From contig CAKZJE010000107.1 in the NCBI GenBank assembly GCA_936941155.1, positions 62,001 through 126,000 of the forward strand: a stretch of DNA of 64,000 nt. Reading direction: 5' to 3'. Below are positions 57,403 through 61,844 of this stretch, piece by piece; position 1 is the stretch's first letter; each line of letters opens with the position of its first letter. Source of the DNA: an uncultured Methylomonas sp. Its GTDB lineage: Bacteria > Pseudomonadota > Gammaproteobacteria > Methylococcales > Methylomonadaceae. Both the position numbers and the translations under genes were made by a program. Below the pieces are notes generated by a model. It was not told where the DNA came from, made no database searches, and saw only the letters and a program-made list of their open reading frames with translations.

Positions 57403-57912
57403 ATGATTGAGTTAATCAAAAAATTTAATCCGAGAATTTGGTTCTTCATCGGCAGTATGAGCTGTTTTGCAATGCTAGGCATCGGAGCTTATTTGCAGTT
57501 TGTAGAACATTTAGAACCCTGTCCCCTGTGTATTTCGCAACGGATTGCCTTGTTTTCATTAGGAATTGTGCTGTTGATTGCCGCAATTCATAACCCCGCG
57601 CCCAAAGGTGTGAAAATCTACAGTATTTTAGGCACACTGGTTGCGGTGGCAGGCGGCTGTATTTCAACGCGCCACATTTGGATACAGCATTTGCCGCCAA
57701 ATGAAGTGCCTGAATGCGGCCCCGGTTTGGAATATGTGTTTGAAAACTTTCCATTAGCCGAAACGATTAAATTAATGCTCAATGGCACGGGTGATTGTGC
57801 AAAAGTGGATTGGACGTTATTAGGATTAAGCATTCCTGAATTAACTCTGATGGCTTTTTTGGGTCTGGCAACACTGAGTTTGCTGCAAATTTGGAATAGA
57901 CAACAGGATTAA
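57403..57912 (+). CDS. dsbB: Disulfide bond formation protein B
   Basis: A 169-residue inner-membrane protein with four helices that reoxidises DsbA and passes electrons to quinone. The first periplasmic pair is Cys40 and Cys43 (EPCPLC), the second Cys105 and Cys132 (PECGPG and GTGDC). The ATG follows a strong ribosome-binding site (AAGGAG); the frame continues 25 codons upstream without one. dsbA is not nearby. Confidence 0.95.
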   Translation: MIELIKKFNPRIWFFIGSMSCFAMLGIGAYLQFVEHLEPCPLCISQRIALFSLGIVLLIAAIHNPAPKGVKIYSILGTLVAVAGGCISTRHIWIQHLPPNEVPECGPGLEYVFENFPLAETIKLMLNGTGDCAKVDWTLLGLSIPELTLMAFLGLATLSLLQIWNRQQD

Positions 57913-57915
57913 ATA

Positions 57916-58188
57916 ATGGATCCAATGACTTCTTTGGTACTAGCCATTACCGTTTTAGTGCTAGTGCTGTATGTGTTTTTCTGGCTTATTGTGCCGTTGC
58001 TATGGAAATATTTGTTGTTGCCGTTAGGCAAACTCGCCTATTTCATCTTGCTGTTAGTATTTGGAATCAGTTTTTTTATGCTGTTTTTCGTCAGCAAACA
58101 ATTAGGTATTCCTGAAGATGTGCAGCTTATGATGGCAGCTTTTTCTGCGGTAGTCTCAGGGGTAAAGTGGGCAACTAAAAAAATGTAA
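57916..58188 (+). CDS. Hypothetical small membrane protein
   Basis: A 90-residue protein, three bases after dsbB and so probably co-transcribed. It has two long hydrophobic helices (residues about 6-35 and 38-62) and a short cytoplasmic C-terminus. No family is recognised. Confidence 0.6.
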   Translation: MDPMTSLVLAITVLVLVLYVFFWLIVPLLWKYLLLPLGKLAYFILLLVFGISFFMLFFVSKQLGIPEDVQLMMAAFSAVVSGVKWATKKM

Positions 58189-58526
58189 GCTTTTGCCGCC
58201 TACAAATATTACAAAGAAATGACTTAAGTTATGCACAAAAAATCAGAAAACTGTTTTTTCTCTGTCAAGTAGCAATTGCCAAGTATTTGATTTACAGAGA
58301 ATCTTTATAAGTTATTGAAAATAAATGACTTTGTATTTTGTTAATTAACTGGTCAATGTAACAAAACTGTAATAAAAACCGATACTAAGCAACACAAAAT
58401 CACAGTTATCCCCAGAGTTATCCACAGGTTTTGTGGATAACTCCATTTCTCTAACAATGATAAGCACTTAGCGCATTATTTGTTAGTTTTTCGTGCTAAT
58501 TACGTCATTTTATTGAGTGAAAAATT
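58189..58526. other. AT-rich gap with a DnaA-box cluster
   Basis: No gene. At 58229-58237 lies TTATGCACA, at 58406-58414 TTATCCCCA, at 58418-58426 TTATCCACA and, on the other strand, TTATCCACA again (read as TGTGGATAA at 58432-58440). Between the first box and the others is a long AT-rich stretch (TTGTTAATTAAC and neighbours). See findings for the possible meanings. Confidence 0.7.
58406..58440. promoter_or_regulatory. Three clustered DnaA boxes
   Basis: Two direct boxes, TTATCCCCA (one mismatch to TTATNCACA) and TTATCCACA, followed by an inverted perfect box, in 35 bases. The latter two form the palindrome-like TTATCCACAGG...TGTGGATAA. Confidence 0.75.
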
Positions 58527-59093
58527 ATGACAAAAAAGCAATTTATCCAGCAAATTGTGATCCGCGCCTTGCCAGAAATTAATAATTTATCCTCCACGAT
58601 TCAGTATGCTGAACAGTTGTGGGAAAGCTTGAATTATTATGGTTATGCAGAGGACAAAACCAGCACACCGCGTGAAGGTAAAGACTATTACAAACAACTT
58701 TCCGAAACTCAAAAAAGCGCGTTTGACAAATTTTGGGCGGCGTTTAATTACAAAAAAGATCGCAACGGTGCGGCAATGCGTTGGTTACAGTTGGGAGAAT
58801 TAAGTGCGGAACATTATAAATTTATTATTGAAGCGGCAAAGCAGGAAAATTTAAAGCCGGTTAATAAAGGACAAGTGCGCAAAATGGCGCAGGGTTGGCT
58901 TTTTGAGAGACGCTATGAAGACTTTACACCAACCGCTGGCAATCAAAAAAAGCAGCAAGATTTGGTTTTAGTGAATTTAAAAAACGAATTAACAAATCTT
59001 AAAAATCTATACAAACTCAGTCCAAATGCCGCGATTGCCGCACAAATTAAAGCAATGGAGACCAAAATTGCGACGTTTTCAGCACCTGTTTAA
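58527..59093 (+). CDS. Protein resembling phage replisome-organiser middle domains
   Basis: A 188-residue hypothetical protein. Residues about 63-135 show the pattern seen in phage replication proteins: Phe-Asp-x-Phe-Trp-x-Ala (FDKFWAAFNYKKDRNGAAMR), a central helix and a Trp-Leu-x-x-Arg-Arg-Tyr-Glu-Asp ending (GWLFERRYEDF, replacing the common 'WL..rW.D'). The last 40 residues form a predicted coiled coil. No catalytic motif. It starts just downstream of the DnaA-box cluster. The resemblance is from memory and would need a profile search. Confidence 0.5.
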   Translation: MTKKQFIQQIVIRALPEINNLSSTIQYAEQLWESLNYYGYAEDKTSTPREGKDYYKQLSETQKSAFDKFWAAFNYKKDRNGAAMRWLQLGELSAEHYKFIIEAAKQENLKPVNKGQVRKMAQGWLFERRYEDFTPTAGNQKKQQDLVLVNLKNELTNLKNLYKLSPNAAIAAQIKAMETKIATFSAPV

Positions 59094-59097
59094 ATCA

Positions 59098-59128
59098 GAC
59101 CTTCCAGGTTTTTAAAACCTGGAAGGTC
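59098..59128. repeat. CCTTCCAGG hairpin repeat, copy 1
   Basis: GACCTTCCAGGTTT-TTA-AAACCTGGAAGGTC, arms of 13-14 bases. It lies between convergent genes and could end both transcripts, though it lacks a T-run. An almost identical hairpin occurs at 63610. Confidence 0.75.
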
Positions 59129-59134
59129 TAAGCC

Positions 59135-60148
59135 TTAAAGACTTTCCAAAATATCGGCAATCAATTGCTGCCCTTGATAAATCAAGCCGGAATAAATCTG
59201 CACTAAACTAGCACCTGCGGCTAATTTCTCTTGTGCCTCAGCGGCTGTCAAAATCCCGCCTGCGGCAATAATCGGTAACTTTCCATTTAAAACTTGCGCT
59301 AATTGTGCAACAACATAAGTAGATTTTTCTTTCACTGGCGCACCGCTCAAGCCTCCCGCTTCATTTGCCAACGGATGATTTTTAATCATTTCGCGGTCAA
59401 TCGTGGTATTGGTAGCAATCACGCCATCTATCGCAAATTCTAATAACAAGCCGCCGATATGCGCAATTTCCTCATCGGATAAGTCTGGAGCAATTTTAAC
59501 CACTAGCGGCACATATTTATCATACTGTTTTTGAAGAATTAATTGCTCTTCTTTTAACGCAGATAACAGTTTTTTAATTTCATCGCCTTGCTGCAATTGC
59601 CGCAAATTTTTAGTATTTGGCGAAGAAATATTAATCGTGATATAGCTGGCAACGTCGTAGCTTTTCCGTAAACCAATTAAATAATCTTCCGTTGCCGCTT
59701 CAATCGGCGTATCAAAATTTTTGCCAATATTAATCCCTAAAATACCTTGGTATTGGCATTTTTTCACTTGCGCAATCAAATGATCCACACCTAAATTATT
59801 GAATCCCATGCGATTAATAATCGCTTGATGCTCCGGCACACGAAACAAACGCGGTTTAGGATTGCCCGGTTGTGGACGCGGTGTCACTGTGCCAATTTCT
59901 ACAAAACCAAATCCCAGCGCGGCAAGTGCATCAATATAATCGCCGTTTTTATCTAATCCCGCCGCCAATCCCAGCGAATTTTTAAAATTCAAGCCCATCA
60001 CAGTGACGGGTTTGTCTTTGTGAGAGGGCGCGGTCAATTGCGTGAGTCCGGTTTGGGCTGCGAATTTTAATAATTTGAGCGTCACGTTGTGCGCTGTTTC
60101 GGGATCTAATGAAAATAAAGCGGGGCGAAGGAGTGGATAAAGATTCAT
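59135..60148 (-). CDS. pyrD: Dihydroorotate dehydrogenase (quinone)
   Basis: A class 2, membrane-bound PyrD that oxidises dihydroorotate and reduces quinone. The ATG of [20 protein letters not shown] gives 337 residues, as in E. coli (336); a TTG four codons upstream is open. FMN and substrate motifs: [31 protein letters not shown] with the catalytic Ser, [12 protein letters not shown] and IAAGGI near the end. Confidence 0.97.
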
Positions 60149-60276
60149 AACAGTTTTCAATAGTAATATGTGGACGTAGGTAAACGAGTTTGAAGAGAAA
60201 TAGTTATTAGCGGATGTTACACACTGTAGAGGAAAAATACTAATCGTATAGGAAAGCTATTTCAGATAGACATTCT

Positions 60277-60318
60277 GGAAAATTTTCTAAGACGACCAGT
60301 CGTCTTAAAAAATTTCAG
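60277..60318. repeat. REP-like palindrome, copy 3
   Basis: Core AAGACGACCAGTCGTCTT with outer arms GAAAATTTTCT / AAAAAATTTCAG, related to copies 1, 2 and 4. Confidence 0.8.
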
Positions 60319-60339
60319 CTAAAAAAGGATGATTAATTC

Positions 60340-60635
60340 ACGACTGGCAGTCCTTTTAGGCATAAGTATCTACACAAGATAGCTTGACAGTTTTTATAAT
60401 AAAATCATTGATAATAAAGAGATTTTTGTAGGTTGGGTTAGCGTTATTGAGCGAAGCGAGATAAGCGTAACCCAACATGCAGCCTTAAAATAAACGAACT
60501 TTGTTGGGTTACGCTCTTTTTTCTGACGAAAAAAGTAGCTAACCCAACCTACATATTTCAATATCCAATTGATATATAAATACTTTTTAAACTAAAGATA
60601 TGTAGATAGCTATGCCTTTGAGGACTAACAGTCGT
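60340..60635. repeat. MITE-like element, copy 3 (about 296 bp)
   Basis: Same orientation as copy 1 and very similar throughout, including ATTGATAATAAAGA and the two GTTGGGTTA hairpins; ends ACGACTGGCAGTCC and GGACTAACAGTCGT. Flanked by two REP-like palindromes. Confidence 0.85.
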
Positions 60636-60667
60636 AGCTCTGCATTTTTCTAAATCAAATTTACCAA

Positions 60668-60703
60668 AGTTTTTCAAAACGACCAGTCGTCTTGAAAATT
60701 TTC
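60668..60703. repeat. REP-like palindrome, copy 4
   Basis: AGTTTTTCAAAACGACCAGT-CGTCTTGAAAATTTTC, the same core as copies 1-3. It lies about 50 bases after the thiO stop. Confidence 0.8.
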
Positions 60704-60752
60704 GGAGTTTCGCGGCAATTGACAGAAACTAATCTGTCTTGCGCAACAACCG

Positions 60753-61844
60753 TTATTCGGAACGAGTCAACCGATAAGGCAGCGGGTTGACTTCAGGCAA
60801 GCGTTTTAAAATTAAATCCGCCATCAATTTTGCCGAAGCCGGAGCCATTGTTAAACCATTTCTGAAATGTCCGGCATTAATACTTAAATTTTCAATCTCA
60901 GGATGATTATCTATATAAGGTATACCGTGCTCTGTGCCCGGACGTAAACCCGCCCAATGCGCAATCAGAAAAAAATCTTTTAAGGCAGGAAACAATTCCA
61001 GCGCGAATGATTTGAGCTTGTTTTTTACTTGTTCACTGGTGGATTTATCAAAACCCGCCTCTTCAACCGAGCTACCAACCAAGATTTTACCGTCGCGGCG
61101 CGGAATTAAATAATGGTCATCATCTAATATAATGTGCGAAAGCGTATCCGGTTGCGCTTGAAACAATATCATCTGTCCTCTAATCGGCTTAATTTGCAGT
61201 TTTTGCGACGCTGGGAATAAGTTTTGGGTAAATTCCCCCGTCCACGCTCCCGTTGCAATCACAACGTGATTAACAGAAAACTCGTCCAAATTTGTTTTAA
61301 GCGATTGAATTTTGTTATTTTTTTCTACCAATTCCGTAACAACACAATTTTCAATAAATTCCACACCTTGTTGCAACAGATAAGCTTTTAATGATTTTAA
61401 TAAACGTGGATTACGCGCTTGGGCAATAGTTGGCAACCAAAGTGGTTTTTCAACATTCGTATGAATCTCGGCAAAAAAACTTAAATCTGCCGCTTCAACT
61501 GGAATCTGATTCGTTTTACACCATGTTTTTGCCAATTCGCTGTCAGGGTTTTTGCTAATTAATAAACCGCTTTTTGTCCATTCGGGGTCAAGCCCTGTTT
61601 CTGCAAGTAAATCATTTGCTAATAAAGGATAGTTTTTAATACTCGGAATGACTAATTGCGTAATCGCGTCCGCTTGTCGCCAAGGGTACAGTGGCAACAA
61701 AATTCCCCCGCCCGCCCATGAAGACTCTTGTGCAGAGGCGTTTTTTTCAATCACGGTTACTTTTGCACCCGCCTGTTGGAGTTCTTTTGCGGTTAATAAA
61801 CCAATAATGCCGCCGCCAATGATGGTGATGTCTGTGTTTTTCAT
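60753..61844 (-). CDS. thiO: Glycine oxidase ThiO
   Basis: A 363-residue FAD enzyme that oxidises glycine to iminoglycine for the thiamine thiazole. The Rossmann motif IIGGGIIGLLTAKELQQAG is at the N-terminus, SSWAGGGILLPLYPWR and GAWTGE follow, and the C-terminal LRPGTEHGIPYI and NAGHFRNGLTMAPASAKLMA contain the substrate and FAD contacts. The thiazole genes thiS and thiG are not nearby. Confidence 0.93.
   Translation of the reverse strand: MKNTDITIIGGGIIGLLTAKELQQAGAKVTVIEKNASAQESSWAGGGILLPLYPWRQADAITQLVIPSIKNYPLLANDLLAETGLDPEWTKSGLLISKNPDSELAKTWCKTNQIPVEAADLSFFAEIHTNVEKPLWLPTIAQARNPRLLKSLKAYLLQQGVEFIENCVVTELVEKNNKIQSLKTNLDEFSVNHVVIATGAWTGEFTQNLFPASQKLQIKPIRGQMILFQAQPDTLSHIILDDDHYLIPRRDGKILVGSSVEEAGFDKSTSEQVKNKLKSFALELFPALKDFFLIAHWAGLRPGTEHGIPYIDNHPEIENLSINAGHFRNGLTMAPASAKLMADLILKRLPEVNPLPYRLTRSE

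Follow-up and report, generated by a model that had tools for sequence, protein, structure and literature searches.

A predicted DARS-type DnaA-box element precedes a phage-type replication gene in a Methylomonas genus that seems to have lost priA

Results

A cluster of DnaA boxes lies between dsbB and a phage-type gene

The window analyzed here is the whole stretch of 64,000 nucleotides taken from one contig of an uncultured Methylomonas sp. Near its right end, the gene order is dsbB, a 90-aa open reading frame, a non-coding element rich in DnaA boxes, a gene starting at position 58527 (the 58527 gene), and pyrD. The features of this region are as follows.

57412..57912, + strand: dsbB, the upstream anchor of the dsbB-element-priA arrangement
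57916..58188, + strand: open reading frame of 90 aa, also found in the congeneric genome G060, with no family match
58229..58237, + strand: outlying DnaA box TTATGCACA, 177 bp before the core, a distance that is the same in the congeneric genomes G059 and G060
58308..58320, + strand: IHF-like site TAAGTTATTGAAA (reverse of WATCAANNNNTTR), with one mismatch here
58354..58390, + strand: conserved block CAATGTAACAAAACTGTAATAAAAACCGATACTAAGC, which contains a pair of TGTAAYA repeats at a distance of 11 bp, recognized from the alignment of copies
58406..58440, + strand: predicted DARS-type core, with boxes TTATCCCCA at 58406 (+), TTATCCACA at 58418 (+), and TTATCCACA at 58432 (-)
58459..58471, + strand: flank GATAAGCACTTAG, a similar form of which is common to many priA-side copies of the element
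58527..59093, + strand: 188-aa gene, a relative of Mu-like phage "replication initiation / primosomal" genes, located where relatives have priA

The four boxes reported in the initial annotation of this DNA are each exactly in place in the window sequence. Its description of their surroundings as AT rich also held, with a G+C content of 30% for the intergenic stretch 58189-58526 versus 40% for the whole window. The density of boxes, which had been called far above chance, was confirmed by two counts. When sites with at most one mismatch to TTATCCACA or matching TTATNCACA were considered (30 sites in the window), every other 250-base stretch of the window contained at most two. Across the 4.26-Mb genome, exact TTATCCACA occurs 76 times, versus 26 in a reversed control, and TTATNCACA occurs 287 times, versus 104; only three places in the genome hold at least two exact TTATCCACA boxes within 250 bp, namely the 58406-58440 cluster, a group of five at C31:144139-144295, and a pair at C31:163529/163553. 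The two boxes of this last pair (C31:163529-163561) are 24 bp apart and about 19 kb from the likely oriC described below, and they may mark a further DnaA site.

The second and third boxes of the core form a perfect stem (58415-58443). A terminator reading was rejected because this stem is followed by a poor tail and many relatives have only an imperfect version of it. No Rfam match was found in 57900-59100 up to an E value of 1, and promoter prediction returned no sigma-70 promoter for the + strand of 58189-59200. We take the TGTAAYA repeat block at 58354..58390 to be PhoB/OmpR-box-like. Further along, between pyrD and the next gene, the stretch 60260-60760 contains CGACCAGTCGTCTT-motif repeats and an inverted pair containing AACCCAAC/GTTGGGTT.

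The boxes have the core geometry of E. coli DARS1 and DARS2

DnaA-reactivating sequences (DARS) have been described for E. coli and its relatives. Their core is described as three boxes, spaced equally in DARS1 and DARS2, of which box I is opposite in orientation to boxes II and III (PMC5742627). We scanned for the geometry of the 58406..58440 core, with three boxes in the order +,+,-, starts 12 and 14 bp apart, and no more than two mismatches per box. The scan matched both E. coli DARS1 (NC_000913.3 813107-813141; mismatches 2, 0, and 1) and DARS2 (2969135-2969169; mismatches 2, 1, and 2), and E. coli datA did not fit. The DARS2 match falls exactly between the primer flanks given for a published deletion of boxes I to III (PMC4585315). 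The boxes at 2969091-2969120, which belong to a primer of that report, were considered as the DARS2 core and set aside; the scan locates the core a little further on, within the interval that the primers flank. Only the site at 58406..58440 fit in the 420,160 bp of the Methylomonas genome that were scanned (mismatches 1, 0, and 0), and none fit in 436,615 bp of viral contigs carrying relatives of the 58527 gene. A blastn search with 58300-58450 returned nothing useful in E. coli (best E value of 2).

We then compared the site with 48 distinct elements, which are the 53 distinct copies found minus those that were near-identical (fewer than six differences). The 12/14 arrangement was the best of 104 spacings tried on these elements, with a mean of 2.0 mismatches compared to 5.8 for the next. 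All 48 fit the geometry with 0 to 4 mismatches and a perfect middle box, and all 48 have the inverted third box at 14 bp within three mismatches; as the elements were chosen by likeness to the 58189-59093 site, in part with a pattern that includes the middle box and not the third, this uniformity is partly built in. Tandem arrays of the oriC type reached totals of 4 to 5 mismatches only with the third box off by 4 to 5 (9 of the 14 matches in loci L081-L110).

DARS2 has a regulatory flank with IHF sites and Fis. The element has an IHF-like site on one side: the motif YAANNNNTTGA is present in 40 of the 48 distinct elements, with the full consensus in 29, and in 36 of these 40 it stands at one of two adjacent positions (counts made with no shuffled control). 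Like DARS1 and DARS2, the element is non-coding and has three boxes, one of them inverted, and some genomes of the family carry more than one copy, as E. coli carries two DARS. It differs from them in its neighborhood, often standing before priA or near hrpA/dnaE, whereas the E. coli sites lie at bioD-uvrB and in the rppH-mutH region, and in the conserved TGTAAYA repeats of its flank, none of which were seen at DARS1.

Strong boxes with an IHF-like site nearby could also make up a datA-like or simple DnaA titration site, and E. coli datA shares with our element a 12-bp tandem pair as well as boxes with an IHF site. We consider this reading very unlikely, given that datA does not fit the three-box geometry and that the inverted third box recurs in every distinct element. 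Taken as a whole, the box geometry, conservation, and position observed here are best explained by a DARS-type DnaA-reactivating sequence, a prediction to which we assign a probability of roughly two in three. DnaA would assemble on the three boxes, two in tandem and one inverted, and bending by IHF and binding of a regulator to the TGTAAYA block would probably assist. This assembly would release ADP from DnaA, allowing it to be recharged with ATP.

The element is conserved across the family and often stands before priA

A BLAST search with 58189-58470 found matches in 190 of 237 family genomes at E values of ≤1e-5, a hand count in which weak matches may be box repeats only; the strongest matches were 71 to 86% identical. 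The remaining 47 genomes, including all 18 of genus g26, had no match at this threshold. An alignment of 32 copies from 30 loci contains the IHF-like site, the block of two TGTAAYA repeats, and the three boxes, and the two congeneric genomes, G059 and G060, repeat the 177/12/14 spacing of all four boxes. Of 34 genomes of the family searched with a rigid pattern, most of them closed, 24 contained the element; 40 genomes from other families of the order had none, and neither did the reversed control. The gap from GTAATAAAANCSG to the core was 31 bases in 28 of 28 pattern matches. These data bear on the suggestion in the initial annotation that the cluster might be an inherited phage origin. The neighboring gene is indeed a phage-type gene. 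The site, however, is one of the bacterial family, since it is also kept where the gene is missing and since the viral contigs scanned contain no fit to its geometry.

What lies beside the element was determined for 58 flank loci, a set made up of the best BLAST matches and the pattern matches in which some sites were fetched twice. The next gene was PriA-type in 28 loci, and DsbB was on the other side in 24. One of the downstream proteins is PriA by NCBIfam, and the others are PriA by TIGR00595 positions. In wider stretches, the element stood just upstream of PriA in 11 of the 13 loci with PriA, most of which had been picked for the element. Among four stretches picked for priA, the element was beside the gene in two (L154 and L159) and not in the other two (L155 and L158). 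Tandem copies about 350 bp apart were seen in G081 (L153:3393 and 3749, corresponding to G081:C1 near 572409 and 572764) and also in G080 and G083; the pair in G081 is 355 bp apart and lies between hrpA and dnaE.

One potential explanation for this arrangement is that the cluster serves mainly in transcriptional control, with DnaA and a PhoB/OmpR-like factor regulating priA or the phage-type gene without acting on the nucleotide of DnaA. The frequent PriA-type gene directly downstream is in line with such a role, as are the similar downstream flank around CACTTAG among copies and the pair of copies that G081 has behind hrpA and upstream of dnaE. Some copies (L057-L060, L132, and L138) are flanked by converging genes and there cannot drive a neighbor. 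Because of these copies, the element is not simply a promoter, and a promoter does not need the exact geometry of a DARS core. We regard control of transcription as unlikely to be its main function. With the predicted DARS-type element, DnaA bound at the boxes may still tune transcription of the gene behind it, since the element so often stands before priA in the family. The initial annotation had also raised the possibility of a site through which DnaA controls the replisome-like gene; the anatomy supports a DnaA-linked site in front of such a gene.

The cluster is probably not the chromosomal origin

The initial annotation had further proposed that the cluster may be the chromosomal origin. 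The location of dnaA was used as a proxy for oriC; an oriC trio pattern proved too strict, matching only 3 of 37 genomes. In the Methylomonas genome, dnaA (TIGR00362) sits on contig C112 and has no box within one mismatch in its upstream stretch. The densest cluster, at C31:144139-144295, consists of five exact boxes and one TTATACACA, followed by TTATCCACAGAAAACAGCGTTACTAATAATAATA, which reads like what we take to be a DnaA-trio unwinding module. The cluster is conserved in its entirety in G059 and G060 and also outside the genus, in members of genera g27 and g29. Its 3' part has weak matches in two closed relatives, no more than about 1.3 kb from the dnaA domain (E values of 2.4e-4 in G119 and 0.0026 in G157). 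Because the six-box, trio-bearing C31 cluster has these matches, weak as they are, to DNA beside dnaA, the 58189-59093 cluster is probably not oriC. Nor is the latter the best box cluster of the genome, the C31 cluster being richer.

GC skew, which had been proposed as a check, was calculated for C31 and C107 and decides nothing. On contig C107, the cumulative curve reaches its lowest point at about 112 kb, which is 8 kb from the 58189-59093 site, and on C31 there is no clear switch at 144 kb; both signals are weak. The distance between the element and dnaA is about 31 to 120 kb in G157, G173, G174, G180, and G185 and varies widely across relatives, from 31 kb to more than 1 Mb, and the element can be duplicated. 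Clustered boxes, AT-rich DNA, and an IHF-like site would suit a chromosomal or accessory origin, as would the nearby skew minimum and the shorter distances to dnaA in those five genomes, and the rival C31 site has its own weaknesses in the missing skew switch and the modest E values of its two matches. Set against the C31 cluster, the variable distances, and the duplications, an origin at 58189-59093 appears most improbable.

The likely oriC (L023:8139-8320, corresponding to C31:144139-144320) is itself away from dnaA, unlike in G119 and G157. It is flanked by what we take, by eye, to be genes for a MoxR-type ATPase and a short-chain-dehydrogenase-like protein. Two genes that look multicopper-oxidase-like by eye, at L002:4102-5859 and L023:9461-11095, are 82% identical; the first adjoins the relative of the 58527 gene in G060, and the second, in the Methylomonas genome under study, is separated from the likely oriC by about 1 kb. 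The positions of these genes point to rearrangements around both DnaA sites.

The genus seems to have lost priA

The PriA profile TIGR00595 scored over its cut-off in 292 of the 311 genomes of the order. All of these were among the 308 genomes outside the genus, and none of the three genomes within it reached the cut-off. The genome that carries the window is 99.98% complete, and its best residual PriA match is Mfd. A tblastn search with PriA against stretches of the genomes of the genus returned only Mfd- and RecG-like matches and chance matches. Sixteen of the 308 other genomes were also without priA over the cut-off (G065, G075, G111, G112, G131, G154, G189, G199, G210, G212, G230, G288, G027, G054, G056, and G302; calls read from best E values, with possible fragments in G065 and G212), and 13 of the 16 are less than 90% complete. 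The absence is not so easily explained in G302 (98% complete), G027 (93%), and G199 (90%), which are without a relative of the 58527 gene too. Judging from its three draft assemblies, the genus seems to have lost priA.

The position that priA occupies in relatives is taken here by the 58527 gene. In G059, a relative of this gene follows the element and lies at the end of its contig. In G060, the two have been separated by an inversion, so that the element stays with dsbB and the gene with pyrD. The flank GATAAGCACTTAG, which resembles that of many priA-side copies, is kept before the 58527 gene.

The 58527 gene is related to replication genes of Mu-like phages

The 58527 reading frame is open for 188 aa. 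Its middle section had been described as resembling phage replication proteins, and a profile search bore this out: residues 59-144 matched the PHROG "replication initiation protein" weakly when searched alone (E value of 0.0017) and better as a family, with 16 of 17 members matching (best E value of 3.4e-8). PHROG 270 was matched by 16, 9474 by 10, and 9327 ("primosomal protein") by 10 of the 17 members. The protein shares with these Mu-like phage proteins the domain FW.AF..K..R..AA.RW.QLG ... GWL..RR..D and, by sequence similarity, belongs to this replication/primosomal family, although it matches only part of the longer PHROG profiles. Relatives were found in 18 of 311 genomes, this one included, and at 41 loci of viral contigs. 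One relative, in L003, sits among MuA/MuB-type, DUF3164, and Mor genes: it follows a transposase, a MuB-type protein, and DUF3164 and precedes Mor. The 58527 gene, by contrast, stands alone on the chromosome between the element and pyrD, and no adjoining phage gene was recognized. The three copies in the genus form one clade (support of 100/99). Between the copies in this genome and G060, dN is 0.21 and dS is 3.3 (a value near saturation, for this pair only), from which we conclude that the gene is under strong purifying selection.

The structure model of the protein is all-helical (pLDDT of 83.8). A Pfam search found nothing of note, NCBIfam had no match at E values up to 10, and PDB gave no match by sequence and none convincing by fold. 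Foldseek returned nothing at E values of ≤0.001; BFVD entries named "replisome organizer" appeared at 0.055 and 0.12. A fold assignment was rejected, the VIA rows covering mostly the C-terminal helical hairpin. A tblastn search of 50,697 phage records found no match at an E value of 1. What the protein has in common with PriA is its position behind the same element; it does not match TIGR00595, and we found neither a sequence relation to PriA nor a helicase domain.

Discussion

The initial annotation overlooked the DARS geometry, the missing priA, and the conservation of the element across the family. A literature search of titles and abstract openings found no paper on DARS or on priA loss in this family.

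How the genus restarts replication may be connected with the phage-type gene. Phage Mu is reported to use the PriA of its host at replication forks; in cells with priB deleted, Mu infective centers dropped from 23% to <0.08% in a priA null and stood at 16% with a dnaC suppressor (PMC3334882). Because Mu needs host PriA and an altered helicase loader bypasses this need, a Mu-type bypass protein would be a logical donor. PriA could become dispensable for a Mu-like phage that encodes a helicase recruiter of its own, and likewise for a host that retained the gene. The 58527 protein may help to recruit the DnaB helicase, and its position together with the co-loss suggests that the phage gene took over the place of priA. 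A domesticated Mu-like phage gene would then stand behind the element, with priA gone. We propose tentatively, at odds clearly below even, that PriA was replaced by a domesticated Mu-like helicase-recruiting protein behind the DARS-bearing control region of priA, which would wire together DnaA recharging and restart.

Alternatively, the 58527 gene may be unrelated to the lost priA, and restart may proceed by PriC/Rep or through an altered helicase loader. PriA-independent restart via dnaC suppressors exists in E. coli (PMC3334882), and the 58527 protein is far smaller than PriA, with no helicase domain by Pfam. The location of the gene behind a priA-type element, both in its own genome and in G059, and the strong purifying selection argue the other way. 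This alternative, which is compatible with a DARS-type element, is a real possibility that falls somewhat short of an even chance.

If the DARS-type reading is correct, an element of this geometry before priA throughout the family would extend DARS to another gammaproteobacterial family and would tie DnaA recharging to restart genes. If the replacement of PriA is also correct, it would represent a rare swap of a core part of the replication machinery, and a lineage that has a phage gene instead of priA would provide a natural test of the minimal needs of restart.
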